In this document: positions 814 to 63,373 of the stretch, piece by piece
How positions within the stretch are numbered: position 1 is the stretch's first letter
Layout: each line of letters begins with the position of its first letter
Source of the DNA: Alloalcanivorax mobilis
Lineage (GTDB): Bacteria > Pseudomonadota > Gammaproteobacteria > Pseudomonadales > Alcanivoracaceae
Direction: 5' to 3'
Length of the DNA stretch: 64,000 nt
NCBI RefSeq assembly: GCF_002864685.1
Contig: NZ_NMQZ01000012.1
Location: 1-64,000, forward strand
Program-made: the position numbers and the translations under genes
Notes under the pieces: model-generated
The model's database searches: none
Seen by the model: the letters and a program-made list of their open reading frames with translations, nothing else
Told to the model about the DNA's origin: nothing

Positions 814-2043
814 ATGAGCGGGCATCAAACCACGATCAACAAATCCGACAAACTCAAAGGGGTTTGCTACGACATCCGCGGGCCGGTACTGCGCGAGGCG
901 CACCGGCTCGAGGACGAAGGCCACCGGGTGATCAAACTGAACATCGGCAACCCGGCGCCGTTCGGCTTCGAAGCACCCGAAGAGCTGCTTCAGGATGTGA
1001 TCCATAACCTGCCCGATTCCACTGGCTACTGCCACTCCAAGGGCCTGTTCCCGGCCCGCAAGGCGATCATGCAGTACACCCAGACCAAGGGCATCGAGAA
1101 TGTCACCGTCGATGACATCATTATCGGCAATGGCGTCTCCGAGCTGATCGTCATGGCGATGCAGGCGCTGCTGAATTACGGCGACGAAGTGCTGCTGCCA
1201 GCACCGGATTATCCCCTGTGGACCGCCGCCGTGCGACTCTCCGGCGGCAACCCGGTGCATTATCTCTGCGATGAACAACAGGACTGGCAGCCGGCGCTCG
1301 ATGACCTGCGCGCCAAGATCACCGACCGTACCCGCGCTCTGGTGATCATCAACCCCAACAACCCCACCGGCGCCAACTACGACAAGGCGCTGCTGCAGGA
1401 AATGCTGGAAATCGCCCGCCAGCACGACCTGATCGTGTTCGCCGACGAAATCTACGACAAGATTCTCTACGACGGCGAAGAGCACCATTCGATCGCCTCG
1501 ATGGCCGACGACCTGCTGTTCATTACCTTTAACGGCCTGTCCAAGAACTACCGGGCGGCCGGTTTTCGTGCCGGCTGGATGGTGATTTCCGGCGCCAAGT
1601 ACCGTGCCGAGAATTACATCGAAGGGCTCGACATGCTGGCCAGCATGCGGCTGTGCGCCAACGTGCCCAGCCAGCACGCGATCCAGACCGCCCTCGGTGG
1701 TTATCAAAGCATCAGCGATCTGGTGCTGCCCACCGGGCGCCTGGGCCGCCAGCGCGACAAAGCCTGGGAGATGCTCAGTGCGATCCCCGGCGTCAGTTGC
1801 GTGAAACCCAAATCCGCGCTCTACCTGTTTCCGCGCCTGGACCCGAAAGTGTTTCCGTTCCAGGACGACGAAGCCTTCGCCCTGGATCTGCTGCGCCAGG
1901 AAAAAGTGCTGATCGTTCAGGGCACCGCCTTCAACTGGCCCCACCCGGACCATTTCCGGGTAGTGTTTCTGCCGCGCCTGGACGACCTGGAAGATTCCAT
2001 CGGGCGCATCGCCAACTACCTGGATAGGGTTCGGAAAAAGTAG
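814..2043 (+). CDS. alaA: Glutamate-pyruvate aminotransferase AlaA (PLP-dependent)
   Basis: The 409-residue product is a class I/II aminotransferase of the AlaA/YfbQ type, which makes alanine from pyruvate with glutamate as donor in the cytoplasm. Visible family features are YDIRGPVLREAHRLEDEGH at the N-terminus, the NPNNPTGANY loop around residue 188, VFADEIYDKILYDG, and the PLP lysine in the motif GLSKNYRAAGFRAGW (Lys244). Length is as expected (E. coli about 405). The start has only a weak upstream purine run (GCGAGCAG). The gene is followed directly by the inverted heptad repeat at 2041-2315, whose first unit begins at the stop codon. Confidence 0.92.
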   Translation: MSGHQTTINKSDKLKGVCYDIRGPVLREAHRLEDEGHRVIKLNIGNPAPFGFEAPEELLQDVIHNLPDSTGYCHSKGLFPARKAIMQYTQTKGIENVTVDDIIIGNGVSELIVMAMQALLNYGDEVLLPAPDYPLWTAAVRLSGGNPVHYLCDEQQDWQPALDDLRAKITDRTRALVIINPNNPTGANYDKALLQEMLEIARQHDLIVFADEIYDKILYDGEEHHSIASMADDLLFITFNGLSKNYRAAGFRAGWMVISGAKYRAENYIEGLDMLASMRLCANVPSQHAIQTALGGYQSISDLVLPTGRLGRQRDKAWEMLSAIPGVSCVKPKSALYLFPRLDPKVFPFQDDEAFALDLLRQEKVLIVQGTAFNWPHPDHFRVVFLPRLDDLEDSIGRIANYLDRVRKK

Positions 2044-2315
2044 CTGCAAGCCAGGGCATCGTGGCGGAGGGGCCGTGCCGGTCAAGAGCCCGTTGAAAGT
2101 TAAAGGTTAAAAGTTAAAAGGTCCTGGCCGAAACGCCTTCCCACGGCCTACGGCCGTGGAAGATCAACGCGGGTTCTCCCTCAAGCGCGGGTACGGCCTT
2201 GCCGTCTTGTGGCCCCCGCCCGCGTTTTCACTTTTCACTTTTAACTTTCAACTAGCGCCTTGCCCACGGCACGGCGCTTCTTCCAGCACAGTCAGCTTGA
2301 AGCTTGAAGCTCTAC
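2041..2315. repeat. Nested heptad inverted-repeat element A (uninterrupted copy)
   Basis: This fills the whole space between the convergent alaA and methyltransferase genes. An outer pair of arms is of GCTGCAA/GCTTGAA type at 2043-2052 and about 2298-2312. Inside it four plus-strand units GTTGAAA, GTTAAAG, GTTAAAA, GTTAAAA (2092-2119) face four inverted units TTTTCAC, TTTTCAC, TTTTAAC, TTTCAAC (2225-2252). The core contains a short perfect palindrome (CCACGGCC, 3-nt loop, GGCCGTGG). Almost the whole element recurs in the same orientation at 57570-61236, where an insertion sequence splits it. Such a structure could act as a bidirectional terminator, but that is inference. Confidence 0.9.
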
Positions 2316-3251
2316 TCAATCCTGATCGAGGTGCTCCGGCCGCCGGTAGCGATAGGCGAGCACTTTCAGCGCCGGTTCGCCGGCCTCGGCAAAACCGGGG
2401 GCGCCGGGCAGCACCGCCTCCAGCTCGGCGCCGGGCAGATGCTCGGCGACCTGCCGTTGCAGCCATTGGCGATCCAGCCAGGGCGCGTTCAGGCACACCA
2501 GCAGCGATGCCCGCGGGGCCAGCAGTTTGCTGAGCCGGCGCAACACCGTGGGGTAGTCTTTCTCGACCATGAAGCTGCCTTTCTGGGCGCTTGGCGGGTC
2601 CACCACGATCGTTTCATAGCGCCCCAGGCTGTGCAGTTTCTTCCAGCTGCGAAAGATGTTGTGCGGCAGGTAATGCACGGCGGCGTCGGCGAAGCCGTTT
2701 TCGCACTGGCTCTCGCGGCCCAGGGCCAGCGCCGGCGCGGACAGATCGATGTTGACCACCCGGCGGGCACCGCCGGCCAACGCCGCCACCGAGAAGGCGC
2801 AGGTAAAACTGAACAGGTTAAGCACGTTGGCGTCGGCGGCACGGTGCCGCAGCCACTGCCGGCCGGGCGCCATATCGGCGAAAAAGCCCAGGTTCTGGCC
2901 GCGCTCAAAATCAAGGCGATAACGCAACCCGTCCTCTTCCACCCAATGCGACCGCGGCGCCTGCCCCACCGCCCATTCGTTGTGCACCGGCCGCCGCTGC
3001 CGGTGCTGCAACAGCAGCGCATCGCATGCCAGTGCCGGCAGGGCGTCGGTCAGGCGCTGTCGCAACGCGGCCAGCACATCCGGCGGGTAATCGTCGAACA
3101 AGGTGGCCACCAGCACCGGCGGATATCGGTCAATACTCAGCCCTTCCCAGCCGGGCACGGTTTTGCCACGGCCGTGAAAAAGGCGGATTCTGGCGTCCTC
3201 GGGCGGAACCAGAGCGGCGTCCAACAGGTCTATTTTCAGGGGCAGGGTCAT
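2316..3251 (-). CDS. Class I SAM-dependent rRNA methyltransferase (RlmI-like catalytic domain)
   Basis: The 311-residue protein matches the catalytic part of the RlmI/RlmK (Methyltrans_SAM) family. It has a substrate-entry segment LDFERGQNLGFFADMAPGR, the SAM-binding stretch VLNLFSFTCAFSVAALAGGA, an acidic strand end NIDLSAPAL, and the catalytic-loop motif VVDPPSAQKGSFMVEKDYP. It lacks the N-terminal PUA domain of RlmI, so the exact RNA target cannot be named. The gene is convergent with alaA, and its stop lies within a few bases of the heptad repeat arm. Confidence 0.85.
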   Translation of the reverse strand: MTLPLKIDLLDAALVPPEDARIRLFHGRGKTVPGWEGLSIDRYPPVLVATLFDDYPPDVLAALRQRLTDALPALACDALLLQHRQRRPVHNEWAVGQAPRSHWVEEDGLRYRLDFERGQNLGFFADMAPGRQWLRHRAADANVLNLFSFTCAFSVAALAGGARRVVNIDLSAPALALGRESQCENGFADAAVHYLPHNIFRSWKKLHSLGRYETIVVDPPSAQKGSFMVEKDYPTVLRRLSKLLAPRASLLVCLNAPWLDRQWLQRQVAEHLPGAELEAVLPGAPGFAEAGEPALKVLAYRYRRPEHLDQD

Positions 3252-3342
3252 AGCGATTCAGGCAGCATGAAAAACCGGCGAAGTATCCCGGGCCATGCGC
3301 TTGAACGCAACCGGGCGCTGCCCCATTTAAGAACCTCCGAAC

Positions 3343-3464
3343 AACGCTTACGACTTTTTTAAAAAACGTTCACGACTGTTTTGTTGAAGAACGTTCATGA
3401 CTGTCTCATTAAAGAGCGTTCAGGACTGTCTCATTAAAGAACGTTCATGACTGTTCCGTTAAAG
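3343..3464 (+). repeat. Five tandem 25-bp repeats upstream of htpX
   Basis: Four units of 25 bp start at 3365, 3390, 3415 and 3440, with a fifth, 22-bp degenerate unit at 3343. The consensus reads AACGTTCATGACTGT followed by CTCATTAAAG. The array ends 4 bp before the GGAG ribosome binding site of htpX, so it lies in the htpX leader or promoter. Regular spacing and position suggest either a multi-site operator or a slippage-generated array. There is no spacer sequence between units, so it is not a CRISPR. Confidence 0.9.
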
Positions 3465-3481
3465 ACTGGAGAAAACACCCC

Positions 3482-4378: not shown

Positions 4379-4383
4379 CGAGG

Positions 4384-4460
4384 GCTGCAAGCTACAAGCT
4401 GCAAGCTACAAAACCACGGGGGCTGATGGTTAGCTTGAAGCTTGTGGCTTGAGGCTTGTA
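4384..4460. repeat. Heptad inverted-repeat hairpin B
   Basis: Left arm is GCTGCAA, GCTACAA, GCTGCAA, GCTACAA (4384-4411); right arm is GCTTGAA, GCTTGTG, GCTTGAG, GCTTGTA (4433-4460). The arms are in perfect 7-bp register and face each other across a 21-nt loop. The left arm starts 6 nt after the htpX stop. It lies between the convergent htpX and ATP-NAD kinase-like genes. Confidence 0.9.
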
Positions 4461-12065: not shown

Positions 12066-12232
12066 AGATGGGGAGTTGAAGAAGGGAGTTAAAAGTTAAA
12101 AGTTAAAAGTTAAAACGCGGGTCGGGCTGGTGCCAGCGGATGTCATCGTGCCCGCGTTGGGGCGCGGGCACGATGCTACCCATCCACACAAGCCCCGGAT
12201 CGCGTTTTAACTTTTAACTTTTAACTTTCAAC
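12061..12232. repeat. Heptad inverted-repeat hairpin C (GTTAAAA type)
   Basis: Left arm: GTTGAAG, ATGGGGA, GTTGAAG, a 6-nt break, then four perfect GTTAAAA units (12088-12115). Right arm: three TTTTAAC and one TTTCAAC unit (12205-12232). The core holds a perfect 13-bp inverted repeat (12144-12156 and 12163-12175). Both converging genes end inside the arms: the RND TGA is in the first GTTGAAG and the fieF TGA is in the last GTTGAAA. This is the most compact example of the family in the window and a plausible bidirectional terminator. Confidence 0.92.
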
Positions 12233-13154
12233 GCCCCCTTTTGACCGCCACATGGGGCCGTTCGGCGACCGGGTCGTGGTGAATGATGACGTCAGCGCTG
12301 GGATAATATTCGTTGATGCGTTTGCGAATGCTCTCGCCGAGGTCGTGGGCGACGCGCAGGGGCAGCGTTTCGTCCATGTCCACGTGCAGCTGAATAAATT
12401 GGGTGCGGCCTGATTGGCGGGTGCGCAGGTCGTGAAACCCCAGCGCCTGTTCGTGCTCGGCCACCACCGTGCTGATCACATCGCGCACCTCGCCGGGCAG
12501 CTCCCGGTCGAGCAGCAACTGGCTGGCCTGCCAGCCGATTTTCCAGGCGGAACGCAGAATCAGGGCGGCGATCACCAGGCCGGCCACGCCATCCAGTTGT
12601 TCGAAACCAAAACCCGAGGCCAGCAACACCACGATGATGCTCAGGTTCATCGCCAGGTCCGAGGCGTAGTGCAGTGCGTCGGCCTCGATGGCGGTGGAAC
12701 CGGTGCGCTTCACCACGTGGCGTTGCCACAGCAACAGCAACACCGTCATGACGATGGAGAACACCATCACCGCCACACCCACGGACGTCGCTTCGATGGG
12801 CCGGGGGTGGATCAGCTTGTCCACCGCCTCGCGCACCAGAAACAACGCCGAACCGGCGATCAGCAGCGCCTGCCCCAGGCCGGCCAGGGCCTCGGCCTTG
12901 CCGTGGCCAAAGCGATGCTCGGCGTCCGCCGGCACCAGCGAATAGCGAATCGCGGCGAAGTTCACCAGCGACGCCAGCGAGTCCATGATCGAATCGATCA
13001 GCGAGGCAAGCAGGCTGACCGAGCCGGTCAGCAGCCAGGCCACGGTTTTCACCGCGATCAGCAACAGCGCCACCAGCACCGAGGCAATCGCCGCCAGGTT
13101 GAGCAGGCGGCGGGCCTGGGCCTCGCTAACGTGAACAGGTTGGGTGCGGTTCAT
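12228..13154 (-). CDS. fieF: Cation diffusion facilitator FieF (iron/zinc efflux)
   Basis: 308 residues of the CDF family: several membrane spans, the metal-site motifs SLIDSIMDSLASLVNF (DxxxD) and DALHYASDLAMN (HxxxD), and a C-terminal cytoplasmic domain ending VIIHHDPV. FieF exports Fe2+ or Zn2+ by proton antiport. It occupies the position where rpoS normally follows nlpD in related genomes. The start ATG has no strong ribosome binding site, but the sequence begins as expected for the family. Confidence 0.9.
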   Translation of the reverse strand: MNRTQPVHVSEAQARRLLNLAAIASVLVALLLIAVKTVAWLLTGSVSLLASLIDSIMDSLASLVNFAAIRYSLVPADAEHRFGHGKAEALAGLGQALLIAGSALFLVREAVDKLIHPRPIEATSVGVAVMVFSIVMTVLLLLWQRHVVKRTGSTAIEADALHYASDLAMNLSIIVVLLASGFGFEQLDGVAGLVIAALILRSAWKIGWQASQLLLDRELPGEVRDVISTVVAEHEQALGFHDLRTRQSGRTQFIQLHVDMDETLPLRVAHDLGESIRKRINEYYPSADVIIHHDPVAERPHVAVKRGR

Positions 13155-22302: not shown

Positions 22303-22307
22303 TTAAC

Positions 22308-22495
22308 GGACGCTGGACGCTGGACGCTGGACGCTGGACGCCTGACGCTAGACGCCGGACGCTAAACCCGAGGCTTAGAGGTCAGGTGTGTTTCCTGTGG
22401 GCGTGCCGAGAGTCCGCAGGAAACACACCGATCATCCCAGTAAAGGGTTAAGCGTCTGGCGTCTGGCGTCCGGCGTCCGGCGTCCGGCGTCAAAC
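22308..22495. repeat. Heptad inverted-repeat hairpin D (GGACGCT type)
   Basis: Left arm has eight units in perfect 7-bp register (GGACGCT four times, then GGACGCC, TGACGCT, AGACGCC, GGACGCT; 22308-22363). Right arm has six inverted units from AGCGTCT to GGCGTCA (22451-22492). The last right-arm unit contains the tilS TGA stop. The core has a perfect 13-bp inverted repeat (22385-22397 and 22417-22429). Confidence 0.92.
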
Positions 22496-24871: not shown

Positions 24872-25031
24872 GCCCGCTCCGCGGGCGATACAAGATGCAG
24901 GATTCAGGATACAGCGCGGAAACCGCTTTGGAATAATTCCCACCGTTGCGGTTTCGCGCTCAAAGGGCAGCGCGGGCATAGCACTTACGGCGGCACCGCC
25001 ATTGTTCGCGCTGAATCCTGTATCCTGTATC
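24872..25031. repeat. Heptad inverted-repeat hairpin E (GATACAG type)
   Basis: Left arm GATACAA, GATGCAG, GATTCAG, GATACAG (24887-24914); right arm CTGAATC, CTGTATC, CTGTATC (25011-25031). A GCGCGGAAACCGC/GCGGTTTCGCGC pair continues the pairing inside. A separate short hairpin GCCCGC/GCGGGC precedes the left arm (24872-24886). It lies between the dnaE 3' end and accA. Confidence 0.88.
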
Positions 25032-25047
25032 GCGGCCAAAGGCCGCC

Positions 25048-47165: not shown

Positions 47166-47204
47166 TTTTGCGTCCGACGTCCGGCGTCGGACGTCAGACG
47201 ACTT
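47166..47204. repeat. Short heptad repeat F between glnD and dapC
   Basis: Units GCGTCCG, ACGTCCG, GCGTCGG, ACGTCAG (47170-47197) run in 7-bp register and are partly self-complementary (CGTCCGACG against CGTCGGACG). It begins 4 nt after the glnD TGA and is a reduced member of the GACGCC-type family. Confidence 0.75.
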
Positions 47205-47222: not shown

Positions 47223-48407
47223 ATGAATCCCGATCTGCAACGGTTGCACCCCTACCCGTTTGAGAAACTTGGCGTGTTGTTTTCCGGCTTGCCGGTCTGC
47301 GACAAACCGCCGGTGGCGTTGTCGATTGGCGAGCCGCAACATCCATCGCCGGAATTCGTGCAGCAGGCGTTGCGCGACAGCACCGCCCTGCTGAGCCGCT
47401 ATCCGGGCACCGCCGGCCTGCCGGAATTGCGTGAGGCCATCGCCGCCTGGTTGCAGCGCCGCTTCAAGCTGCGCAGCATCAGCGCCGAGGACCAGATTCT
47501 GCCGGTCAACGGCACCCGCGAAGCGCTGTTCGCCTTTACCCAGGCGGTGCTGGATCGCAGCCAGGCGCCGCTGGTGCTGATGCCCAATCCGTTCTACCAG
47601 ATCTACGAAGGCGCCGCCCTGCTCGCCGGCGGCCAGCCGGTTTATCTGCCGTGCACTGAAGCCAGCGGCCTGCAACCGGATTTCGACGCCGTCGACGAGC
47701 ACACCTGGCGGCGCACCCAGCTGCTGTTTATCTGCAGCCCCGGCAACCCCACCGGCGCCACCCTCAGCCAGGCGCAGATGAAGGCCCTGATTCAGCTCGC
47801 CGACAAGTACGACTTCGTGATCGCCTCCGACGAGTGCTATTCGGAAATTTACCGGGACAAGCCCCCCGCCGGCTTGTTGCAGGCCTGCGCCGAGATGGGC
47901 CGCCACGATTACCGCCGTTGCGTGGTGTTTCACTCGCTCTCCAAGCGCTCCAATTTGCCCGGTTTGCGTTCCGGCTTCGTGGCCGGGGATGCCGCCCTGC
48001 TGGAGCCGTTCCTGCGCTACCGCACCTACCACGGTTGTGCCATGCCGGTGCACCATCAACTGGCCAGCATCAAAGCCTGGGAAGACGAAACCCACGTGCA
48101 GACCAACCGCCGTCTTTACGCGGAAAAATTCGACGCCGTGCTGGACATTCTCGGTGCGCCACTTAAGGTATCCGCCCCGGACGCGGGCTTTTATTTGTGG
48201 CCGAAGACGCCCATCGACGATGAAACCTTCGCCCGCCGTTTGAAAGCGGAAGAGAACGTCACCGTGCTGCCTGGCCGCTACCTGTCACGCACCGTGGATG
48301 GCCGCAACCCGGGCACGAACCGGGTGCGCATGGCGCTGGTGGCGGAACTGGACCAGTGCGTGGAAGGCGCCAGACGCATCCGCGCCCTGATCGAACGGCT
48401 TGGGTGA
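47223..48407 (+). CDS. dapC: Succinyldiaminopimelate aminotransferase
   Basis: 394 residues, class I PLP aminotransferase. NPDLQRLHPYPFEKLGVLFSG, LPVNGTREALFAFTQAVLD, CSPGNPTGATLSQAQMKALI, and FHSLSKRSNLPGLRSGF containing the PLP lysine. Position between glnD and dapD supports DapC of the lysine/diaminopimelate pathway over other aminotransferases. A good AAGGAAACCC ribosome binding site precedes it. Confidence 0.92.
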   Translation: MNPDLQRLHPYPFEKLGVLFSGLPVCDKPPVALSIGEPQHPSPEFVQQALRDSTALLSRYPGTAGLPELREAIAAWLQRRFKLRSISAEDQILPVNGTREALFAFTQAVLDRSQAPLVLMPNPFYQIYEGAALLAGGQPVYLPCTEASGLQPDFDAVDEHTWRRTQLLFICSPGNPTGATLSQAQMKALIQLADKYDFVIASDECYSEIYRDKPPAGLLQACAEMGRHDYRRCVVFHSLSKRSNLPGLRSGFVAGDAALLEPFLRYRTYHGCAMPVHHQLASIKAWEDETHVQTNRRLYAEKFDAVLDILGAPLKVSAPDAGFYLWPKTPIDDETFARRLKAEENVTVLPGRYLSRTVDGRNPGTNRVRMALVAELDQCVEGARRIRALIERLG

Positions 48408-48498
48408 AGACGCTGGACGCCGGACGCTTGACGCCAGACGCTTAAACCCAAGTTGTCCGAGCGGTGTTTTTAGCGTCCGGCGTCAAGCGTCCAGCGCT
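48408..48498. repeat. Heptad inverted-repeat hairpin G
   Basis: Left arm AGACGCT, GGACGCC, GGACGCT, TGACGCC, AGACGCT (48408-48442), beginning on the base after the dapC TGA. Right arm AGCGTCC, GGCGTCA, AGCGTCC, AGCGCT (48472-48498), ending directly at the AACAAAAGGAAACCC leader of the next gene. The element makes up essentially the whole spacer. Confidence 0.92.
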
Positions 48499-48859: not shown

Positions 48860-48950
48860 GCGCTGGACGCCGGACGCCAGACGCCGGACGCTTAAAGCAA
48901 ACCCCTCCGGGTTTTAGCGTCAGGCGTCCAGCGTCAGGCGTCCGGCGCCC
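48860..48950. repeat. Heptad inverted-repeat hairpin H
   Basis: Left arm GGACGCC, GGACGCC, AGACGCC, GGACGCT (48865-48892), contiguous with the TAA stop of the preceding gene. Right arm AGCGTCA, GGCGTCC, AGCGTCA, GGCGTCC (48916-48943), running into CAACAGGAGGCAAC, the dapD ribosome binding site. The loop is itself an AAACCC/GGGTTT hairpin followed by T residues, so it resembles a terminator. Confidence 0.92.
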
Positions 48951-48964
48951 CAACAGGAGGCAAC

Positions 48965-51216
<2,252 letters not shown>

Positions 51217-53700: not shown

Positions 53701-53832
53701 CTGCAAGCCTCAGGCTATGCGCTTCAAACCCCAAGCCACGGGCGGGCTACGTAGCGCCTCTTGCAGCTTGTGGCATGAAGCTTGCGGCCCTCTCCATGAC
53801 CCACGCTGAACCAGCATCCTGAATCCTGTTTT
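53701..53832. repeat. Degenerate heptad inverted repeats J
   Basis: Left arm CTGCAAG, CCTCAGG, CTATGCG, CTTCAAA, CCCCAAG (53701-53735) faces CTTGCAG, CTTGTGG, CATGAAG, CTTGCGG (53760-53787). A further half-array in 7-bp register, CTGAATC-like, runs from about 53805 to the DMT gene stop at 53832. This looks like an older, eroded member of the family. Confidence 0.7.
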
Positions 53833-55031: not shown

Positions 55032-57569
55032 ATGACGCCCTGGTTAGGACTGGATCGCCTCTTTTTTCTGCTTATTCGCGCTTTTATGCGGCTGTGCACC
55101 CGTATCCGGGCGCTGCCCGAGGACCCGGCGGAACTGCAACTGGACCCCAACAAACCGGTGGTCTATGTGGTGCGGGACCGCTCGGTGGCGGACGCGGCGG
55201 TGGCCGATCAGGCCGCCCGCCGGCTCGGGCTGAGTGCCCCGAAGGCGTCGCTGACCCTGGGTAAGCAGCATTTGTCGCGCAGCTACTTTCATCTTTACAA
55301 GCGCGCTCGCACGGTCAGCCGTGAGCGTCTGGCGGTGACACCGGCGCGGCTGCAACGGTTGGTCGCCGGGCTCAAGAACAACCCCGAGCTGGACGTGCAG
55401 TTGGTGCCGGTGTCGGTGTTCTGGGGCCGCCAGCCAGAAAAGGAAAATTCCCTGTGGCGGATCATTTTTTCCGACAACTGGGCACCGCCGGGTTTCATTA
55501 AGAAATTTTTTATCATCATCACCCAGGGTCGCGAACTCTACGTGCAGTTCAGCTCGCCCCTGTCGCTGCGCGCGCTGGTCGACCAGGGGCGCACCGACGA
55601 CCAGATCGTGCGCAAGACCTCGCGCATTCTGCGCGTGCATTTCCGCCGCCAGCAGGAAGCCGCCATCGGCCCGGATTTGTCCCACCGACGCACGCTCTCC
55701 AACGCCATCATGGAAGCGCCGCCGGTGCGCGAGGCGATTCGCGAGGCGGCCGCCACCCACAACGAAAGCGAAGCGAAAACCCTGGAGCGCGCGCGCGGCT
55801 ACGCCATGGAAATTTCGGCGGACTATTCACACACCGTGATTCGCGCCCTGGCGCTGTTTCTGAACTGGCTGTGGAACCGCCTGTACGACGGCATCCGTCT
55901 TTACAACCTGGACCACCTTACCCATCTGGCGCGCGACCATGAGATCATCTATGTGCCCTGCCATCGCAGTCACATCGATTACCTGCTGCTCAGCTACGTG
56001 GTCTACCGCAACGGTCTGGTGCCGCCGCACATCGCCGCCGGCATCAACCTCAACCTGCCGGTGGTGGGCACCATCCTGCGCCGTGGCGGCGCCTTCTTCA
56101 TGCGCCGCAGCTTCCGCGACAACCCGCTCTATTCGGCGGTGTTCTATGAGTATCTGCACAGCATCACCACGCGCGGTTTTTCGATTGAGTACTTCGTCGA
56201 GGGTGGCCGCAGCCGCAGTGGCCGCATGCTGCAGCCGCGTACCGGCATGCTGGCGATGACGGTACGCAGCTTCCTGCGTGACGCGCGCAAACCGATTGCC
56301 TTCGTGCCGGTCTATGTGGGTTACGAAAAAGTGATCGAGGCGGGCTCGTACATTGGCGAGTTGCACGGCGGTAAGAAAAAGAAAGAGTCGGTGTTTGGCT
56401 TGCTCAAATCCCTCAAGGTGCTGCGCAGCCATTTCGGCCAGGTGCATGTGAATTTCGGCGAGCCGATCCGGCTGGTGGACTTTCTCGACGATCACCGCGA
56501 GGGCTGGCGCAACGAGGAGCTGGCCCCCCACGACAGCCCGACCTGGTTCAAGCAGACCGTCAATGCCCTGGGCGAGGAAGTGGTGACCCGCATCAACGCC
56601 GCCGCGGTGGCCAACCCGGTCAATCTGATCAGCCTGGCGTTGCTGGCCACGCCCAAACACACCATGGATCTGCAGCAACTTCGCCAACAGTTGCAGCTCT
56701 ATATCAATCTGCTTGAGCAGGCGCCGTACAGTGACACCGCGCGCCTGGCGGAAACCGACCCGGACACCATTATCGAGTATGGCCTGGAGCATGAATTCCT
56801 GATTCGCGTGCCGCATTCGCTGGGCGACGTGGTCACCACCGATCCGAAAACCGCCCTGCAGATGGCCTACGTGCGCAACAACAGCCTGCACCTGTTCGTG
56901 CTGCCCGGGCTGATCTGCTCGCTGTTTCTCAACGCCCGCTCGATTCGTCTGCCCATGCTGCAAAGCATGGTCGCCCTGCTCTACCCGTTTTTCCGCAACG
57001 AATATCTTCTGCACTGGCGCCAGGACGACGACCTGCCCGACGCGGTGGAGCGCATTGTCTCGGTGCTGGAGAGCAACGGCCTGATCAGCCGCGAAGGCGA
57101 CTGCCTGCACGGCGCCGCCATTCACAGTTACGCCTCCGATCTGCTCGCCCACCTTGGCCAGACGGTGATGCCCTCCCTGGAGCGTTACTACCTGACCATC
57201 CGCCTGCTGGTGCAATACGGCAGCGGCCGGCTGACCACCGACCAGCTCGGCGAGCTGGCGCACCACACCGCGCAACGGCTCTCTCTGCTTTATGAATTCA
57301 ACTCACCGGAATTTTTCGACAAGGTGGTGTTGCGCAACTTTATCGGCCAACTGGTGGAAGCCGGCCTGGTGGATCTCGACCCGCAACAACAGCTCACCTT
57401 CGGCGACACCCTGCGCACCCTGGACGACGAAGCCCGCCGCATCCTCAGCCCCGACATCAGCCAGGCGATTCAGCGCATCACCCGCGTCCCGGAACTCGAC
57501 ACCGCCCTCGCCGCCACTGACCATCAACAAGCCGGCAACCCGGCCAAAGGCACCGAAGCGGGGAAGTAA
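55032..57569 (+). CDS. plsB: Glycerol-3-phosphate 1-O-acyltransferase PlsB
   Basis: 845 residues from ATG 55032 (E. coli 807). Acyltransferase motifs are visible: VPCHRSHIDYLLLSYVVYRN (HX4D), FFMRRSFRDNPLYS, and YFVEGGRSRSGRMLQPRTGM, then FVPVYVGYEKVIE. Makes lysophosphatidate at the inner membrane, the entry to phospholipid synthesis upstream of CdsA. No clear ribosome binding site. Its TAA runs straight into heptad units CAAGCTG. Confidence 0.95.
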   Translation: MTPWLGLDRLFFLLIRAFMRLCTRIRALPEDPAELQLDPNKPVVYVVRDRSVADAAVADQAARRLGLSAPKASLTLGKQHLSRSYFHLYKRARTVSRERLAVTPARLQRLVAGLKNNPELDVQLVPVSVFWGRQPEKENSLWRIIFSDNWAPPGFIKKFFIIITQGRELYVQFSSPLSLRALVDQGRTDDQIVRKTSRILRVHFRRQQEAAIGPDLSHRRTLSNAIMEAPPVREAIREAAATHNESEAKTLERARGYAMEISADYSHTVIRALALFLNWLWNRLYDGIRLYNLDHLTHLARDHEIIYVPCHRSHIDYLLLSYVVYRNGLVPPHIAAGINLNLPVVGTILRRGGAFFMRRSFRDNPLYSAVFYEYLHSITTRGFSIEYFVEGGRSRSGRMLQPRTGMLAMTVRSFLRDARKPIAFVPVYVGYEKVIEAGSYIGELHGGKKKKESVFGLLKSLKVLRSHFGQVHVNFGEPIRLVDFLDDHREGWRNEELAPHDSPTWFKQTVNALGEEVVTRINAAAVANPVNLISLALLATPKHTMDLQQLRQQLQLYINLLEQAPYSDTARLAETDPDTIIEYGLEHEFLIRVPHSLGDVVTTDPKTALQMAYVRNNSLHLFVLPGLICSLFLNARSIRLPMLQSMVALLYPFFRNEYLLHWRQDDDLPDAVERIVSVLESNGLISREGDCLHGAAIHSYASDLLAHLGQTVMPSLERYYLTIRLLVQYGSGRLTTDQLGELAHHTAQRLSLLYEFNSPEFFDKVVLRNFIGQLVEAGLVDLDPQQQLTFGDTLRTLDDEARRILSPDISQAIQRITRVPELDTALAATDHQQAGNPAKGTEAGK

Positions 57570-57654
57570 CAAGCTGCAAGCTGCAAGCTGCAAGCCAGCG
57601 CATTGTGGCGGAGGGGCCGTGCCGGTCAAGAGCCCGTTAAAAGTTAAAAGTTAA
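57570..57654. repeat. Heptad element K, left part (split by the insertion sequence)
   Basis: CAAGCTG three times then CAAGCCA (57570-57597) directly after the plsB stop, then a segment matching 2053-2099 of element A, then GTTAAAA-type units that end at the insertion boundary. Joining 57654 to 61035 restores a sequence very like element A at 2041-2315. Confidence 0.9.
57647..57654. repeat. 8-bp target site duplication, left copy
   Basis: AAAGTTAA immediately outside the left inverted repeat; the identical octamer is at 61027-61034. ISL3-family elements typically make 8-bp duplications. Confidence 0.93.
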
Positions 57655-57741
57655 GGGTAAGCGGATTAAATGGTTGATCTTACCTTTGCATGAGAGTGAG
57701 ACAGACCGGCATCTCATCGGATTATCTGGTTGATGCTTCAC

Positions 57742-58149
57742 CTACTGCTGGTGCATGTTTCCTTCGCTAATTCCAGCAAGAACCCCACACGCCTCAACTT
57801 CCCGGTCATCGTTGCAACTCGCTCTCAGTGAAACGAGTTGTTTCTCAAGCGCTTGCAGAGCGGTTATCTGCGACCGCACATGAGAGATGTGATCATCGAG
57901 CAAGGCGTTGACGGCGGTACAAGGCTGATGAGGGTCGTCCTGATAGCTCTGTAGTTCGTGAATCTCAGCCAGTGACAGGCCCAGGATTCTGCAGCGACGG
58001 ATGAAGGCCAGCCCCTCACCATGCTTCTCGGTATAGACACGGTAACCGTTGTCCTGCCGATCAGGCGGCGGCAACAAGCCCTGCTGTTCATAGAAGCGGA
58101 TCGTCTGTGTTTCGACCCCTACCAACTGCGCCAACTGACCAATGCGCAT
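57742..58149 (-). CDS. MerR-family metal-responsive regulator (PbrR/CadR-like)
   Basis: 135 residues from ATG 58149 (MRIGQLAQLVGVETQTIRFY). N-terminal winged helix (EQQGLLPPPDRQDNGYRVY), dimerisation helix, and metal-binding cysteines in RRCRILGLS, HQPCTAVN and the C-terminal SCNDDREVEACGV. Residue pattern suggests Pb, Cd or Zn response. Divergent from the CDF gene, with a MerR-type promoter between them. Confidence 0.88.
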   Translation of the reverse strand: MRIGQLAQLVGVETQTIRFYEQQGLLPPPDRQDNGYRVYTEKHGEGLAFIRRCRILGLSLAEIHELQSYQDDPHQPCTAVNALLDDHISHVRSQITALQALEKQLVSLRASCNDDREVEACGVLAGISEGNMHQQ

Positions 58150-58180
58150 CAGCCTCCTCCCCAACGGATTCTTTACTCTA

Positions 58181-58211
58181 TTGACCTTATAGTAGCTTTA
58201 TAGTTTTAAAT
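58181..58211 (+). promoter_or_regulatory. MerR-type promoter/operator for the transporter-lspA genes
   Basis: TTGACC (58181-58186) and TTAAAT (58206-58211) are 19 bp apart, the over-long spacing typical of MerR-activated promoters. The spacer holds an imperfect dyad, TTATAGTAGCTTTATAG. It lies between the divergent merR-type and CDF genes. Confidence 0.7.
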
Positions 58212-58244
58212 GGTACCACAACATTGTTCAAGTGGAGTCGTATC

Positions 58245-59141
58245 ATGAGCAAATCCTGTGGTGGCGCCTGTGGCGGTGATGCAACGTCCGCAGCGGATAC
58301 CGATATACAGGCCTCCTCCGAGGCGCCAGGGAGATGGGTCAGTGTTTATGCCGTGCCGAAGATGGACTGTCCATCAGAAGAACGAATGATTCGCCTAGCC
58401 CTGAACGGCTTTGAGGAGATTCGGGCGCTGTCCTTCGACTTGTCGAACCGCCGGCTGAAGGTCGTGCATGACGGCGAGGTCGAGCCCGTCACCTCGAAAC
58501 TGAAGACCTTGGGGCTAGGCGCCTCGCTTCAGGAAACCGTCGCTGCAAATCCGGAGACCATCAAGGCCGCCGAGTTTTCGGCAGCTTCTGCTAAGCAAGA
58601 ATCCGGGACCCTGCGCTGGTTGCTCGGCATCAATGCACTTCTGTTCGTGGTGGAAATGACTGCCGGTCTGATCGCCCAGTCCACCGGCCTGATTGGAGAA
58701 TCCCTGGACAATTTTGCCGATGCGGCGGTGTACGGGCTTGCCCTTTATGCGGTTGGACATAGCGTGAAAATGCAGGTACGTGCCGCGCATCTTGCTGGTG
58801 TACTGCAACTGATCTTGGCTGTGGGCGTGCTCGTAGAGGTGGTGAGACGCTTTGTATTCGGTAGTGAGCCTGAATCGCTGGTGATGATGGCTATCGCATT
58901 CGTCGCATTGATTGCCAATACCAGTTGTCTGCTGCTCATATCCAAACATCGGGAAGGCGGGGCGCACATGAAGGCAAGCTGGATATTCTCGGCCAACGAC
59001 GTGGTGATCAACCTGGGGGTCATCACCGCCGGCGCCCTGGTCGCGTGGACCGGTTCCAATTATCCGGATCTGATTATCGGCACCATCGCGGGGGGCATTG
59101 TACTTAACGGTGCCAGACGCATTTTGGCGTTGAAGGGTTAA
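58245..59141 (+). CDS. CDF-family heavy-metal transporter with N-terminal HMA-like domain
   Basis: 298 residues from ATG 58245, with GTGGAG upstream. Cys-rich start (KSCGGACGGDA), an HMA-like region VYAVPKMDCPSEERMIRLAL keeping one cysteine where the classical motif has two, then a CDF membrane domain with SLDNFADAAVYGLALYAVG and SANDVVINLGVITAGAL. Probable exporter of the metal sensed by the adjacent regulator. Cargo of the insertion element; 3 nt before lspA. Confidence 0.87.
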   Translation: MSKSCGGACGGDATSAADTDIQASSEAPGRWVSVYAVPKMDCPSEERMIRLALNGFEEIRALSFDLSNRRLKVVHDGEVEPVTSKLKTLGLGASLQETVAANPETIKAAEFSAASAKQESGTLRWLLGINALLFVVEMTAGLIAQSTGLIGESLDNFADAAVYGLALYAVGHSVKMQVRAAHLAGVLQLILAVGVLVEVVRRFVFGSEPESLVMMAIAFVALIANTSCLLLISKHREGGAHMKASWIFSANDVVINLGVITAGALVAWTGSNYPDLIIGTIAGGIVLNGARRILALKG

Positions 59142-59144
59142 ATA

Positions 59145-59657
59145 ATGCTCATTATTGGCAAAAAGCTCTCGCCGTATGCCCTATTGTCCATATCGGGCCT
59201 GCTGGCAGCGTCTGATCAGGCTGTAAAGTGGCTGGTGCAGCAATCAATGGCCTATGGCGAGTATGTTTCGGTGACCCCGTTCTTTAACTGGGTGCACCTA
59301 TGGAACACCGGTGCCGCATTCAGTCTTTTTGCGAATGGTGGAGGCTGGCAGCGCTACTTTTTTATCGGAATCGCGGTAGTGGTCTCGATTTTTCTGATCA
59401 AGCTGATCCTTGAAAATCGTCATAAAGGAGAAGCCATCGCTTACAGTCTTATCCTCGGTGGCGCCATGGGCAACCTGATTGACCGGGTCTTTCGCGGCTA
59501 TGTTGTGGATTCCTTTGATTTCTATTGGCGAGACTGGCATTGGCCGGCCTTCAACCTGGCTGATATTGCAATTGTCCTCGGTGCCTTACTTTTCGTTTCC
59601 AGCAGCTTGTTGGGTAAAAAAGCAAACACCAATGCCGAGCCGGATGGATCTGACTGA
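59145..59657 (+). CDS. lspA: Lipoprotein signal peptidase (signal peptidase II), element-borne
   Basis: 170 residues, four membrane spans. Catalytic aspartates lie in GGAMGNLIDRVFRGYVVDSF and FNLADIAIVLGALL; WNTGAAFSLF is conserved. Cleaves prolipoprotein signal peptides and is the target of globomycin. The host should carry its own lspA elsewhere, so this copy is likely redundant. It follows the CDF gene by 3 nt and precedes the transposase by 21 nt. Confidence 0.94.
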   Translation: MLIIGKKLSPYALLSISGLLAASDQAVKWLVQQSMAYGEYVSVTPFFNWVHLWNTGAAFSLFANGGGWQRYFFIGIAVVVSIFLIKLILENRHKGEAIAYSLILGGAMGNLIDRVFRGYVVDSFDFYWRDWHWPAFNLADIAIVLGALLFVSSSLLGKKANTNAEPDGSD

Positions 59658-59678
59658 CACCTACGCCTATACAACACC

Positions 59679-60968
59679 ATGACCGAACTTCCCGACAACA
59701 TCCTTCACCTGCCGCAATACCAAGTACTGGGCTGCAAATCAACCGACGACGAAATGCACTTCCAGGTGGACGTGCCCGATCCCATCGCCTGCGAGGAATG
59801 CGGCGTGCAGGGTGAGTTCGTACGGTTCGGCAAGCGTGACGTTCCCTATCGTGATCTGCCCATCCACGGCAAGCGGGTCACTCTCTGGGTGGTCCGCCGC
59901 CGATACACCTGCCGGGCCTGCAAGACAACATTCAGGCCCCAGCTACCGGAGATGGTGGACGGATTCCGTATGACACTGCGGCTGCATGAGTACGTGGAGA
60001 AGGAATCCTTCAACCACCCCTACACCTTTGTGGCGGCACAGACCGGCCTGGACGAGAAGACGGTGCGCGACATCTTCAACGCCCGCGCCGAGTTCCTGGG
60101 GCGCTGGCACCGCTTCGAGACGCCCCGCATCCTGGGCATTGACGAGCTATACCTGAACAAGCGCTACCGCTGCATTCTGACCAACATTGAGGAGCGAACC
60201 CTGCTCGACCTGCTGGCCACCCGCCGCCAGGACGTGGTGACCAACTACCTGATGAAGCTGAAAGACCGGCAGAAGGTCGAGATCGTCAGCATGGACATGT
60301 GGAACCCCTACCGGGCAGCGGTCAAGGCTGTGCTGCCCCAGGCCCGTATCGTGGTCGATAAGTTCCATGTGGTGCGCATGGCCAACGATGCCCTAGAGAG
60401 AGTGCGCAAGGGCCTCAGAAAGGAGCTGAAACCGTCCCAGAGCCGGACTCTCAAGGGAGACCGGAAAATCCTGCTGAAACGCGCTCACGAAGTCTCAGAC
60501 CGGGAGCGCCTCATCATGGAGACCTGGACAGGCGCGTTCCCGCAACTGCTGGCCGCCTACGAGCACAAGGAGCGCTTCTACGGCATCTGGGACGCCACCA
60601 CACGGCTCCAGGCAGAAGCCGCCCTGGACGAGTGGATAGCCACCATCCCGAAGGGCCAAAAGGAAGTCTGGAGCGATCTGGTCAGGGCAGTGGGAAACTG
60701 GCGCGAAGAGACCATGACCTACTTCGAGACGGACATGCCCGTCACCAACGCTTACACGGAGTCCATCAACCGACTGGCCAAGGACAAGAACCGTGAAGGG
60801 CGCGGTTACTCCTTCGAGGTGATGCGGGCACGAATGCTCTACACCACGAAGCACAAGAAGAAGGCACCGACTGCGAAGGTCTCTCCTTTCTACAAGAAAA
60901 CCATCGGTTACGGACTGCCGGACTTCGCAGAGGAACTCAACTACGGAGTCGATCTATCAACCATCTGA
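59679..60968 (+). CDS. tnpA: ISL3-family transposase
   Basis: 429 residues. N-terminal zinc ribbon (CEECGVQGEF and YTCRACKTTF), helix-turn-helix region VAAQTGLDEKTVRDIFNARA, and a DDE catalytic domain with ILGIDELYLNKRYRCILTNI, DKFHVVRMANDALERVR and TNAYTESINRLAKDKNREGR. Full length and uninterrupted. Its stop lies about 58 bp from the right end of the element. Confidence 0.96.
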   Translation: MTELPDNILHLPQYQVLGCKSTDDEMHFQVDVPDPIACEECGVQGEFVRFGKRDVPYRDLPIHGKRVTLWVVRRRYTCRACKTTFRPQLPEMVDGFRMTLRLHEYVEKESFNHPYTFVAAQTGLDEKTVRDIFNARAEFLGRWHRFETPRILGIDELYLNKRYRCILTNIEERTLLDLLATRRQDVVTNYLMKLKDRQKVEIVSMDMWNPYRAAVKAVLPQARIVVDKFHVVRMANDALERVRKGLRKELKPSQSRTLKGDRKILLKRAHEVSDRERLIMETWTGAFPQLLAAYEHKERFYGIWDATTRLQAEAALDEWIATIPKGQKEVWSDLVRAVGNWREETMTYFETDMPVTNAYTESINRLAKDKNREGRGYSFEVMRARMLYTTKHKKKAPTAKVSPFYKKTIGYGLPDFAEELNYGVDLSTI

Positions 60969-61026
60969 GGGTGGTATCAGATTGATGGGGTGAAGGTGCC
61001 CCATCAACCATTAAATCCGTATACCC

Positions 61027-61034
61027 AAAGTTAA
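61027..61034. repeat. 8-bp target site duplication, right copy
   Basis: AAAGTTAA directly after the right inverted repeat, identical to 57647-57654. Confidence 0.93.
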
Positions 61035-61236
61035 AAGGTCGTAGCCGAAACGCCTTCCCACGGCCTACGGCCGTGGAAGATCAGCGCGGGTTTGAACTCC
61101 CTGAAGCGCGGGCACGGCCCTGCCGTCTTGTGGGCCCCGCCCGCGTTTTAACTTTTCACTTTTAACTTTCAACCAGCGCCTTGCCCACGGCACGGCGCTT
61201 CTTCCAGCACAGTCAGCTTGAAGCTTGCAGCTTCTA
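61027..61236. repeat. Heptad element K, right part
   Basis: Continues the repeat split at 57654. It matches 2113-2310 of element A closely, including GGCCTACGGCCGTGGAAGAT and the TTTTAAC/TTTTCAC/TTTTAAC/TTTCAAC arm near 61146-61173. It ends with CAGCTTG, AAGCTTG, CAGCTTC (61214-61234), whose last base is in the rsmJ TAG. Confidence 0.9.
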
Positions 61237-61971
61237 GCCCCCCGGCAAATACACATCAAACCGCACCGTCTTGCCATCCAATGAATGGTGCGGGGCGGTG
61301 CCGCCGAGCGGGGGCGCGCGGCGGGGGCGTTTGACGATCACCTTGTCGCAGGGTTGGCGGCGGGCCAGCGCAAGCAGCGCCCGTTCTTCGTCCAGGTCCG
61401 GGTAGCGGCACAGCGTCTGCAGCCATTGCAGATCTTTTTTCACCGCCGCGCTTTTATCCCGGGCCGGGAACATCGGGTCCAGATAGAGCGCGTGCCAGGG
61501 GCCGGCGGGCAGTGGGTCGCTGAGCGCCTCGCCCACCGGCATCAGCGTCAGCCGCTGCGCCAATGGCGTGTCGGCGGCGCGGGCCAGGCCGTCGGCCAGC
61601 AAGGCGTGCAGCACCGGCTGGCGTTCGATCAGGGTCACGGCAAAGCCGGCGGCCGCCATCAGCGCCGCGTCGCGGCCCAGCCCGGCGGTCAGGTCCAATA
61701 CTCGGGGTGACGTGTGTTTGGGCTTGCCGAGGGCTTTGATCAGCCGCTCGTGCCGCACCCGATCCGCCGCCAGGCGATAACCCTGCCGGCCGCCAGTAAA
61801 GTCCACGCACAGCGGCGCCGCCTTGTCGCCGGGTGCCCAGATCGATAACCCCCGCTCCACCACGCCCAGCACCAGCGCCAAGCCCCGTTCGCCGGCGCCG
61901 GCCTCGTCCGCCACCGGGATGCCAACCGCTAGCGGCGGTGCCCCCGGTAACAGGCCGATCAGATCAGCCAC
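61234..61971 (-). CDS. rsmJ: 16S rRNA (guanine(1516)-N(2))-methyltransferase
   Basis: 245 residues. VLDLTAGLGRDAALMAAAGF (SAM site), LIERQPVLHALLADGL and YLDPMFPARDKSAAVKKDL are RsmJ hallmarks. Methylates G1516 of 16S rRNA. Its TAG stop touches heptad repeat K; its start overlaps the uppP 3' end by 13 nt. Confidence 0.93.
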   Translation of the reverse strand: MADLIGLLPGAPPLAVGIPVADEAGAGERGLALVLGVVERGLSIWAPGDKAAPLCVDFTGGRQGYRLAADRVRHERLIKALGKPKHTSPRVLDLTAGLGRDAALMAAAGFAVTLIERQPVLHALLADGLARAADTPLAQRLTLMPVGEALSDPLPAGPWHALYLDPMFPARDKSAAVKKDLQWLQTLCRYPDLDEERALLALARRQPCDKVIVKRPRRAPPLGGTAPHHSLDGKTVRFDVYLPGG

Positions 61972-62756
61972 AGAAACAGCGCGCCGCCCAGTATCAGGCG
62001 ATAAACCATGAACGGGAACATGCCGAGCCGCTCAAGCAGCTTGAGAAAAAACACAATGGTCACATAAGCGGTGGCGGCGCTGACCACCACGCCCAGGGCC
62101 ATGTAGCCCCAATGCACCGGGGTGCTGCTTTCAACCAGATCCACGATCTTCAACAGGCCGGCGCCGAGAATCACCGGCACCGACAGCAGAAACGAGAAGT
62201 GCGCCGCCTGCTCGCGGCGAAAGCCCAGGGCCAGCGCGGCGGTCATGGTGATGCCGCTGCGCGAGGTCCCGGGAATCAACGCCACCGCCTGGGCCAGACC
62301 GATCAGCAGCGCGCTGCGCACGCCCATGCTGTCCATACCACGGGTGCGCTTGCCGGCGCGGTCCGCCAGCCACAGCAACACGCCGAACACCACCGTGGTG
62401 GTGGCGATCACCCAGGCGGACCGCAGTTGATGCTCGATCAGGTCCTTGGCCAGAAAGCCGCCCAGCACCGCCGGCAGGGTCGCCAGCACCACCAGCAAAC
62501 CCAGCTTCAGATCCGGGTTCATACGCCGCTCCACCAGGCCGCGCCCGGCGCCGGTGGTCATTGCCCATAAATCGCGACGGTAATACACCACCACCGCCAG
62601 CAAGGTGCCCAGATGCACCGCCACGTCGAACGCCAGGCCCTGGTCGGGCCAGCCAAGAATTTGCGAGGGAAGAATCAGGTGCGCGGAGCTGGAGATCGGC
62701 AGGAATTCGGTAAAACCCTGAACCAGAGCCAGGATAAAAGCCTGCATGGCATCCAT
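61959..62756 (-). CDS. uppP: Undecaprenyl-diphosphatase UppP (BacA)
   Basis: 265 residues, about eight spans. ALVQGFTEFLPISSSAHLIL and LIPGTSRSGITMTAALALGF are the two catalytic motifs. Recycles undecaprenyl diphosphate at the outer face of the inner membrane. Overlaps rsmJ downstream. Confidence 0.96.
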   Translation of the reverse strand: MDAMQAFILALVQGFTEFLPISSSAHLILPSQILGWPDQGLAFDVAVHLGTLLAVVVYYRRDLWAMTTGAGRGLVERRMNPDLKLGLLVVLATLPAVLGGFLAKDLIEHQLRSAWVIATTTVVFGVLLWLADRAGKRTRGMDSMGVRSALLIGLAQAVALIPGTSRSGITMTAALALGFRREQAAHFSFLLSVPVILGAGLLKIVDLVESSTPVHWGYMALGVVVSAATAYVTIVFFLKLLERLGMFPFMVYRLILGGALFLWLI

Positions 62757-62828
62757 TGAAGTGTCCTTATCGGGGCCGGGTATGGCGCGGGTGCGGGCGC
62801 GCGCTCATCGGTGAACGCGGCCCATCAA

Positions 62829-63269
62829 TCATTGTTCCGTTGCAGTGACCTGATAACCGGCGAGAAATTCCGCGGGCATGCGTTTGGGCTTGCCGGAATC
62901 CAACGCCACGCACACCCACTTGGTGCGCCCGCGCAACAAAGTGACGCCATCGGATTCACGAATAATCTGATAACGCCGGGTCAGGGTGAGGCGCTGATCG
63001 TTCTCCACGATCCAGGTGCCGATCAGCAGTTTCTCGCCTTCAAACGCCGGCGCCAGATAATCCACTTCGGTGTGGCGCGCCACCATGCCACGGTTAAGGC
63101 GTTGATACACATCCCAGCCCAGCCCCAGCACCTGGGTGTGCTGCCAGGCGATTTTTTCCATGAAACGCAGGTACTCGGTATTGTTGACGTGGCCCATCAC
63201 GTCGATCGACTCCGCCGCCACCACCACTTCAAGCTGGTGCACGCCGGGCAGGTCCCACTCGATCATCAA
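62829..63269 (-). CDS. Hot-dog fold acyl-CoA thioesterase
   Basis: 146 residues of the 4HBT family: ESIDVMGHVNNTEYLRFMEK (catalytic region with Asp), then GMVARHTEVDYLAPAFEGE and RRYQIIRESDGVTLLRGRTKW. Resembles YbgC/FadM-type thioesterases; substrate unknown. The start may be either of two adjacent ATGs. It follows tsaB with heptad hairpin L between. Confidence 0.86.
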   Translation of the reverse strand: MMIEWDLPGVHQLEVVVAAESIDVMGHVNNTEYLRFMEKIAWQHTQVLGLGWDVYQRLNRGMVARHTEVDYLAPAFEGEKLLIGTWIVENDQRLTLTRRYQIIRESDGVTLLRGRTKWVCVALDSGKPKRMPAEFLAGYQVTATEQ

Positions 63270-63284
63270 GACTCTCCTTCAAGA

Positions 63285-63365
63285 GGAACAGGTTGCAGGG
63301 AACAACAAACCACGCATCCGAAAAACCCGGCGTGTCACGGCGCCCTGTTCCTTGCAACCTGTTCC
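63285..63365. repeat. Heptad inverted-repeat hairpin L (GGAACAG type)
   Basis: Left arm GGAACAG, GTTGCAG, GGAACAA (63285-63305); right arm CTGTTCC, TTGCAAC, CTGTTCC (63345-63365), in 7-bp register. It fills the spacer between the tsaB stop and the thioesterase start. Confidence 0.9.
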
Positions 63366-63373
63366 GTGGTTGT

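Follow-up and report, generated by a model that had tools for sequence, protein, structure and literature searches.

Which process fills the spacers between bacterial genes with facing arrays of seven-base units that share a layout across different sequences? The question was raised by a 64,000-bp stretch of the Alloalcanivorax mobilis genome (the window), corresponding to positions 1-64000 of contig 4 of a 4.1-Mb draft in 92 contigs that is 99.97% complete. At twelve sites in the window, an initial annotation had described tandem heptads facing the same heptads inverted, and had attributed them to slippage with template switching or to a dedicated polymerase rather than to one mobile sequence. 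In this study, we found that the inverted heptad layout is real and that it is carried by several families of hairpins. We give about an even chance to the view that these are short non-coding palindromic mobile repeats, similar to repetitive extragenic palindromes (REPs) and miniature inverted-repeat transposable elements (MITEs) and built like miniature foldback transposons.

We scanned the DNA for arrays at different periods. In the window, 11 segments were found at period 7 compared with 0-1 at periods 2-6, 8-13 and 15; period 14, a harmonic of 7, gave 7 segments. The base-level sample was 832,535 bp, about 20% of the host genome, and consisted of the window and stretches of contigs 1, 2, 4, 5, 6 and 7; five short stretches elsewhere were also examined. 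This sample held 183 period-7 arrays, which formed 51 inverted pairs and 1 direct pair (39 and 0 under a strict match rule), whereas ten first-order Markov resamples held 39-56 arrays, with no inverted pair in nine of them and 1 in the other. Periods 8-11 gave 0-2 inverted pairs and period 5 gave 1, while at period 6 there were 17 inverted with 10 direct pairs under the loose rule and 4 with 5 under the strict rule. The 51 pairs belonged to six heptad families, GACGC (22), GTTRAA (12), CAAGC (7), GTKTTCA (6), CACGC (2) and GGATNCA (2), so that one layout is indeed common to several different unit sequences. Extrapolation from the sample gives about 250 hairpins for the whole genome. These results confirmed that the inverted heptad layout is above chance.

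The orientation of neighbouring arrays was also highly regular. All 20 neighbour pairs of GACGC arrays with at least three units were convergent, with 5 arrays unpaired; when the four GC-rich types were pooled, 29 neighbours were convergent (LR), 1 was same-strand (RR) and 0 were diverging (RL), with 17 arrays unpaired. For arrays of at least two units, the counts were 9 convergent, 2 same-strand and 8 unpaired for GTTRAA, 5 convergent and 11 unpaired for AGTKTTC, and 1 convergent and 3 unpaired for GGATNC. On the basis of these counts, convergence is a strong rule, to which the many single arrays are exceptions. Inverted period-7 pairs are not general: 65 loci of other gammaproteobacteria (1.26 Mb) contained 2, both true heptad hairpins in Pseudomonas-labelled records, and 40 further stretches (623 kb) contained 1, which we read as an ordinary GC palindrome. 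The same 40 stretches held 6 strict period-7 arrays, none of them inverted.

We next consider the unit itself. Units were phased without an exact motif, using arrays that averaged at least 4.8/7 matches to a class motif including its free positions. Interior units of the six phased classes showed position-specific constraint, and in the GC-rich families five positions were nearly fixed and two were variable. The 5-mer GACGC was followed by Y and then, in most units, by D (163 units; 94-100% at the fixed positions), CAAGC mostly by Y and D (35 units), and CACGC mostly by W and R (23 units, fixed positions 91-100%). The AGTTAAA unit had A/G at positions 1 and 5 (58 units), AGTTTTC had T/G at position 4 (59 units), and AGGATTC had T/A at position 6 (10 units only). 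That the same positions are spared in independent arrays is not expected from free mutation and slippage. The free dinucleotide of GACGC was CG, TG, CA or TA in 158/183 cases. We considered CpG deamination as its source and rejected it, as CACGC and the AT-rich families vary at other bases.

Variation within an arm differed from variation between arms. Neighbouring units carried the same free dinucleotide at a frequency of 0.56 in 138 cases, compared with 0.445 after shuffling within arrays (0/1000 shuffles as high) and 0.228 after shuffling across arrays. This result supports slippage or local conversion within an arm, which upholds that part of the proposal made in the initial annotation. 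The other part, template switching at replication, supposes that one arm is copied into the other and that both are renewed together. The 5-mer type was equal in both arms of 28/29 inverted pairs, as such copying would predict; however, the exception combined a left GACGC arm with a right CACGC arm, the free positions of left and right GACGC arms were no more alike than after permutation (0.174 vs 0.225, p 0.94, n=20), and arm lengths were uncorrelated (rho 0.15, n=20, for GACGC; Spearman 0.09, n=51, for all families). Copying from arm to arm was therefore unsupported by either free-dinucleotide concordance or arm length, and we regard template switching as very unlikely. Because the 5-mer type agrees while free positions and lengths do not, the two arms have a common origin and a common constraint and vary separately.

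A telomerase-like or diversity-generating-retroelement-like reverse transcriptase that writes heptads off an RNA template would fit the limitation of degeneracy to set positions, which resembles templated but sloppy repeats. RVT_1 was present in 7/16 genomes searched, but it was not found in the nearly complete own genome, G002 or G012, all of which carry heptads. The dedicated polymerase of the initial annotation thus found no backing as far as the reverse-transcriptase type is concerned, other polymerases not having been looked for, and we consider the reverse-transcriptase explanation barely conceivable.

For the twelve sites in the window, arm limits were set by eye and period-7 identity was scored for each arm. 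Random 30-mers of the window had a mean identity of 0.26, with a 99.9% quantile of 0.78 in a sample that includes the heptad sites themselves. Clear heptad arms were seen at 10/12 sites (identity 0.68-0.82 in both arms). They were not seen at 53701 (identity 0.38-0.39, complementary 18/31) or 63285 (identity 0.36-0.46, complementary 19/28), and 47170, described earlier as two facing arrays, is instead a single self-complementary array. The features are listed below.

2041..2311: composite element copy 1, with short outer arms of CAAGC type (right about 2294-2311; left only about 1.5 units long), GTTRAA arms further in (2091-2123 and 2222-2254) and a GC-rich core.
4383..4460: CAAGC-type heptad hairpin with a loop of 18 bases, between convergent genes.
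12084..12234: hairpin of GTTRAA heptads that encloses a GC-rich hairpin and lies between two convergent genes; its outermost heptad contains the stop codon of the minus-strand open reading frame (ORF).
22305..22495: GACGC heptad hairpin; core ends AAACCC..GGGTT, inner palindrome GTGTGTTTCCTG, core folding z -8.6.
24887..25035: hairpin of GGATNC heptads at the dnaE 3' end.
47170..47200: one heptad array of GACGTC type, self-complementary, upstream of dapC.
48407..48496: GACGC heptad hairpin with a 37-base loop, beginning at the dapC stop codon.
48860..48951: hairpin of GACGC heptads, flanked by an ArsC-family gene and dapD.
49999..50081: hairpin of CAAGC heptads in the dapD-dapE spacer.
53701..53830: weak site without clear period 7, possibly a CAAGC-type hairpin that has decayed.
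57564..57654: composite copy 2, left half (CAAGC arm 57564-57598, GTTRAA arm 57636-57654).
57655..61026: ISL3-family element inserted into the heptad arm; besides DDE_Tnp_ISL3, it carries genes for signal peptidase II, cation efflux and MerR.
61027..61238: composite copy 2, right half (GTTRAA arm 61145-61174, CAAGC arm 61213-61238).
63277..63372: GGAACAG/GTTGCAG hairpin with fair complementarity and weak period 7.

The window also contains a tandem array of 25-base units (4.3 copies) at 3359-3465.

The composite element provided evidence of copying. The sites at 57570 and 61027 are one element, interrupted by a 3.4-kb ISL3-type transposon that is flanked by an 8-bp direct repeat, AAAGTTAA, at 57647-57654 and 61027-61034; we take the gene set of this transposon to be reminiscent of ISPpu12. 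The interrupted element matched the element at 2041 with 94% identity over 69 bases and 93% over 210. A 22-base marker lying between the outer and inner composite arms was found at seven genomic places with at most 3 mismatches, four of them exact, compared with 1 match for the reversed control. When the seven composites were aligned, all of them shared the marker module and the GTTRAA arms on the inner side. One core was present in both window copies and L307 and partly in L306, another and more variable core in L308-L310, and outside the right inner arm likeness persisted in the two window copies and L307 only. Since the seven copies share the marker module and inner arms and not the cores, the composite arms are retained while the middles and outer parts vary, a pattern also seen in foldback elements. 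As in MITEs, there are several dispersed copies with terminal inverted repeats and without an ORF. These results showed dispersal in copies for at least one composite. The earlier statement that the hairpins do not reflect the spread of one mobile sequence is thus right in that several families exist, but not for this composite.

For the GACGC elements, copying is inferred. Inner arm edges were 79-94 bases apart in 16/20 GACGC pairs. The ends of the 21 cores were AAACCC and GGGTTT-like, and inner palindromes of the type GTGTTTCCTG..CAGGAAACAC or GCGGCTGCG..CGTAGCCGC were frequent. Their folding gave a mean z of -3.0, with 12/19 below -2 (2/21 of less than 40 bases were dropped), compared with a mean z of -0.23 and 1/40 below -2 for 40 random segments. 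An alignment of the eight GTTRAA cores showed little in common beyond CGCG-like ends.

We then compared the families among related genomes; the dapD protein of the host is 87-88% identical to those of Alloalcanivorax species. Four-unit GACGC arrays, counted as overlapping matches, numbered 486 in the own genome, 430 in G008, 100 in G033 (another genus) and 88 in G012; none of the remaining 53 of 57 genomes had more than 9. GTTRAAR gave 105 matches in the own genome (control 10), 50 in G002 (control 8), 39 in G003 and 24 in G001 (control 1), with at most 10 in each of the other 53 genomes; class-wide, 3/143 genomes matched, the own genome included. Four-unit GTKTTCA arrays numbered 87 in the own genome and 0 in the other 56. 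The reversed GACGC control gave 1 match in the own genome and 21 in G017, of the same family, where a CGCAG-type heptad may have expanded.

The same spacers were followed in congeners, with junction ends taken from tblastn and some cells of the junction table blank. A scored repeat (heptad, REP doublet forming a hairpin (REPIN)-like, or unclassified period 7) was present in at least one genome at 13/43 syntenic junctions among eight genomes, as judged by author-defined patterns for which as few as two units suffice and which missed the sites at 47170 and 63285. The dapD-dapE spacer held CAAGC in the own genome and G001, CACGC in G003 and G012, and GTTRAA in G002, while G011 had no spacer and G006 and G008 had no hairpin. 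The sisters G001 and G003 share 98.1% identity over 26 concatenated proteins and 96.8% over a 19.5-kb match spanning dapD-dapE; in this spacer their central block was 57% alike, and the left change fell at the dapD stop codon. At the junction 24773-25048, the own genome had GGATNC, G012, G006 and G008 had CACGC, G011 had a short spacer, and G002 (L210-L212) had a REPIN-like pair around an imperfect tandem array of about 30 bases (CGCATGACCCCGGGCCAC...). At 53217-53832, the sisters G006 and G008 differed, with an AGTKAAY-like repeat in the former and AGTTGAC with a REPIN-like insert in the latter. For the hairpin at 22305..22495, G012 had a GACGC element with a similar core at the same junction; for that at 48860..48951, it had a CACGC hairpin; and at the position of 47170..47200, the seven compared congeners had just 18-20 bp. 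These results showed that congeners, sisters included, hold different hairpins in one spacer. Such a change of family may reflect replacement, nested insertion with loss of the old arms, or recombination with other strains.

REPIN-like sequences occurred beside or within heptad hairpins as separate items. We also observed REPIN-like pairs (GATCGCGACTGAAGTCGCTCCTAC) in G001 that were not at the same place in G003 in the syntenic stretches listed (L213-L218).

The comparison bears on another explanation, in which a DNA-structuring or DNA-uptake protein binds the arrays, whose role would lie in chromosome organisation or transformation. The nearly fixed 5-mers at 7-base spacing would suit such binding, and inverted pairs located at gene ends may be comparable to known uptake sequences. 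However, the heptad type differs between sister species at one site and four-unit GTKTTCA arrays are confined to 1/57 genomes, and we hold protein binding of this kind to be highly improbable.

The placement of the hairpins was examined using mechanical ORF calls. Of 51 hairpins, 23 lay in tandem, 22 in convergent and 2 in divergent spacers and 4 within called ORFs, while the spacer DNA available was 42.7 kb tandem, 16.8 kb convergent and 19.9 kb divergent. In tandem spacers, the arm started a median of 2 bases past the stop codon. Gaps in convergent spacers had medians of 4.5 and 7.5 bases, and the hairpin occupied a median of 89% of the spacer. Some stop codons fell inside a heptad. The elements are thus dispersed, extragenic and at gene 3' ends, as are REPs and REPINs.

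Such placement raises the alternative that the hairpins are selected RNA devices, either bidirectional terminators or 3'-end stabilisers, whose layout would be maintained by selection on transcript ends and for which any hairpin-forming sequence would serve. Besides the 3'-end position and the filling from stop codon to stop codon, it is favoured by strong predicted pairing in RNA, where the shorter arm was paired over a median of 0.82 and over at least 0.6 in 47/51 hairpins, compared with a median of 0.30 when the right arm was flipped. Terminator-like signals were found at 27/51 hairpins compared with 18.5 +/- 3.0 in length-matched random segments, and a T-rich tract followed 10/102 arm ends compared with 2.35% of random positions. 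However, convergent spacers with hairpins were not clearly richer in terminator-like signals (12/20) than those without (20/45). A terminator scan covering 1-20000 and 44001-64000 gave 18 sites against 17.0 (sd 4.5) in shuffles for the former, which is the shuffle level, and 27 against 18.9 (sd 4.6), a modest excess, for the latter. Free positions agree no better within than between elements, and in congeners many of the same spacers are without a hairpin. The hairpins may have a role in termination, and we consider it quite unlikely that selection for RNA devices accounts for the hairpins. In an Rfam search of the window at the gathering score, no hairpin was matched; the sole match was t44 RNA (RF00127) at 43302-43422 on the minus strand (62.5 bits vs a gathering score of 44).

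The main rival to the mobile foldback-like reading is local growth of existing stems. An ordinary stem at a gene end, such as a terminator, a REPIN or another palindrome, would have its basal unit amplified on each side by slippage, stems that grow in 7-base steps would survive best, and no transposition would be needed. The likeness of adjacent units within an arm and the lack of correlation between arm lengths both agree with it. In G033 (L134, 1501-1598), a terminator-like stem, AAAAAGGCCCG..CGGGCCTTTTT, has 14 GACGC units on one flank and only one GCGTC on the opposite flank, and it may represent a heptad hairpin at an early stage; in G007, a AAAGCCCGC..GCGGGCTTT stem lies between GACGC arms. 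Arrays at the foot of terminator-like stems in these two genomes could show how new arms arise. Mrazek's proposal that heptads suit polymerase slippage, as cited in the available parts of two reports (PMC4692102, PMC4679880), points the same way. Local birth does not, however, account for composite copies that share arms and about 45 bases outside the inner arm, for the recurrence of the same few 5-mers at many sites, or for a five-of-seven constraint that is unexpected from slippage alone. We consider it unlikely.

In the mobile foldback-like reading, which we prefer at the strength given above, each element would consist of two inverted tandem-heptad arms around a variable, often itself hairpin-forming, middle. 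Replication slippage would alter the number of units, and a putative trans-acting factor might read the constrained unit and move or protect the elements, by analogy with the extra binding sites that the available part of a foldback report describes in the arms of Galileo (PMC4079207). Selection would tolerate the elements mainly between stop codons and ribosome-binding sites, and arms, when transcribed, may fold into a long RNA stem at the 3' end. The reading draws support from the inverted rather than direct period-7 layout, the constrained unit, the separate variation of the two arms with likeness inside each, the dispersed composite copies, the GACGC cores with their common ends and folding, the predicted pairing of arms in RNA, the position at gene 3' ends, the patchy expansion of families among relatives, and the differing occupancy and family at the same junction in congeners. 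Several points weigh against this reading. Copying was shown for one composite alone, and many of the arrays counted above are unpaired. GTTRAA cores folded barely more stably than shuffled sequence, with a mean z of -1.0 and 2/7 below -2 (1/8 dropped as short), and loops were short in CAAGC and GTKTTCA hairpins (medians of 17 and 27.5 bases). No target-site duplication was seen by eye at filled and empty junctions, where divergence blurs the ends. No transposase was tied to the elements, for which Y1_Tnp counts alone were made: 16 genomes had 1-5 each, the own genome 3, with no evident relation to heptad load. Mobility alone would also leave the period of 7 common to several families unexplained.

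A more specific form of the reading would address the unit. It proposes that bacteria have a class of miniature foldback elements whose common feature is a code and not a sequence: some five positions would be read by a putative dedicated factor and about two would be free, lineage-specific words would be swapped as cassettes within one intergenic slot, leaving sister species with different families, and GGGANTN of Xanthomonas would be another word. We offer it tentatively and think it, on balance, improbable. Such a class would join the scattered bacterial notes on heptads, from cyanobacteria, Beggiatoaceae and Xanthomonas, into one architecture, and would turn the focus away from G-quadruplexes and simple slippage towards inverted arms built of a constrained unit. 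Because the constraint is position-specific, a recognition factor can be searched for, and different hairpin families at one stop codon in sister species offer a natural experiment on 3'-end hairpins and expression. Our literature search, which covered few subscription journals, retrieved no report of one genome with several inverted heptad families that are not G-rich, of bacterial foldback elements, of a constraint pattern shared across families, or of differing families at one spacer of sister species.

The inverted layout had been thought undescribed in gammaproteobacteria, which did not hold. According to the available part of a report on Xanthomonas, GGGAATC heptads form 70 and 75 convergent array pairs in two species, with four units per array commonest (PMC4692102). 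The likeness extends further: these arrays are intergenic, near stop codons and rare between divergent genes, and their unit, GGGANTN, has five conserved positions (1-4 and 6) and two variable ones (PMC4692102). The difference is that, in that portion of the report, one G-rich heptad was studied as a G-quadruplex (PMC4692102), whereas here at least six heptads occur in one genome, with nested cores and with different heptads in one spacer of sister species. The consensus G run is at most 2 in our six phased classes, so the units lack the G-tract of a quadruplex. TAACTGA heptads of Beggiatoaceae, Cyanobacteria and Bacteroidetes, also found in gammaproteobacteria, are mostly intergenic arrays as here; in the accessible part of their description, they are direct and mostly just upstream of start codons, with one inverted case in the main genome (PMC4679880), whereas ours are inverted and at 3' ends. 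REPs and REPINs, in the part of the source available, are likewise dispersed extragenic palindromes expanded in particular lineages (PMC3733652), whereas the arms here are tandem heptads. The REP tags GTAG and CGTC lie outside the nearly fixed positions of the CAAGC, CACGC, GTTRAA, AGTKTTC and GGATNC units; GTAG spans unit borders in the CAAGCTA and CACGCTA variants, and GACGC reads CGTC on one strand. Eukaryotic foldback transposons differ in that the elements here are far smaller, bacterial and made of 7-base units, with no target duplication or transposase found, whereas Tetris, an example in the available part of the foldback report, has a target-site duplication of 8-10 bp (PMC4079207). 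As described there, foldback transposons are non-coding, with a variable middle between inverted ends of variable-number tandem repeats (PMC4079207), and the hairpins described here likewise have terminal inverted repeats of short tandem repeats in which both unit number and middle vary.

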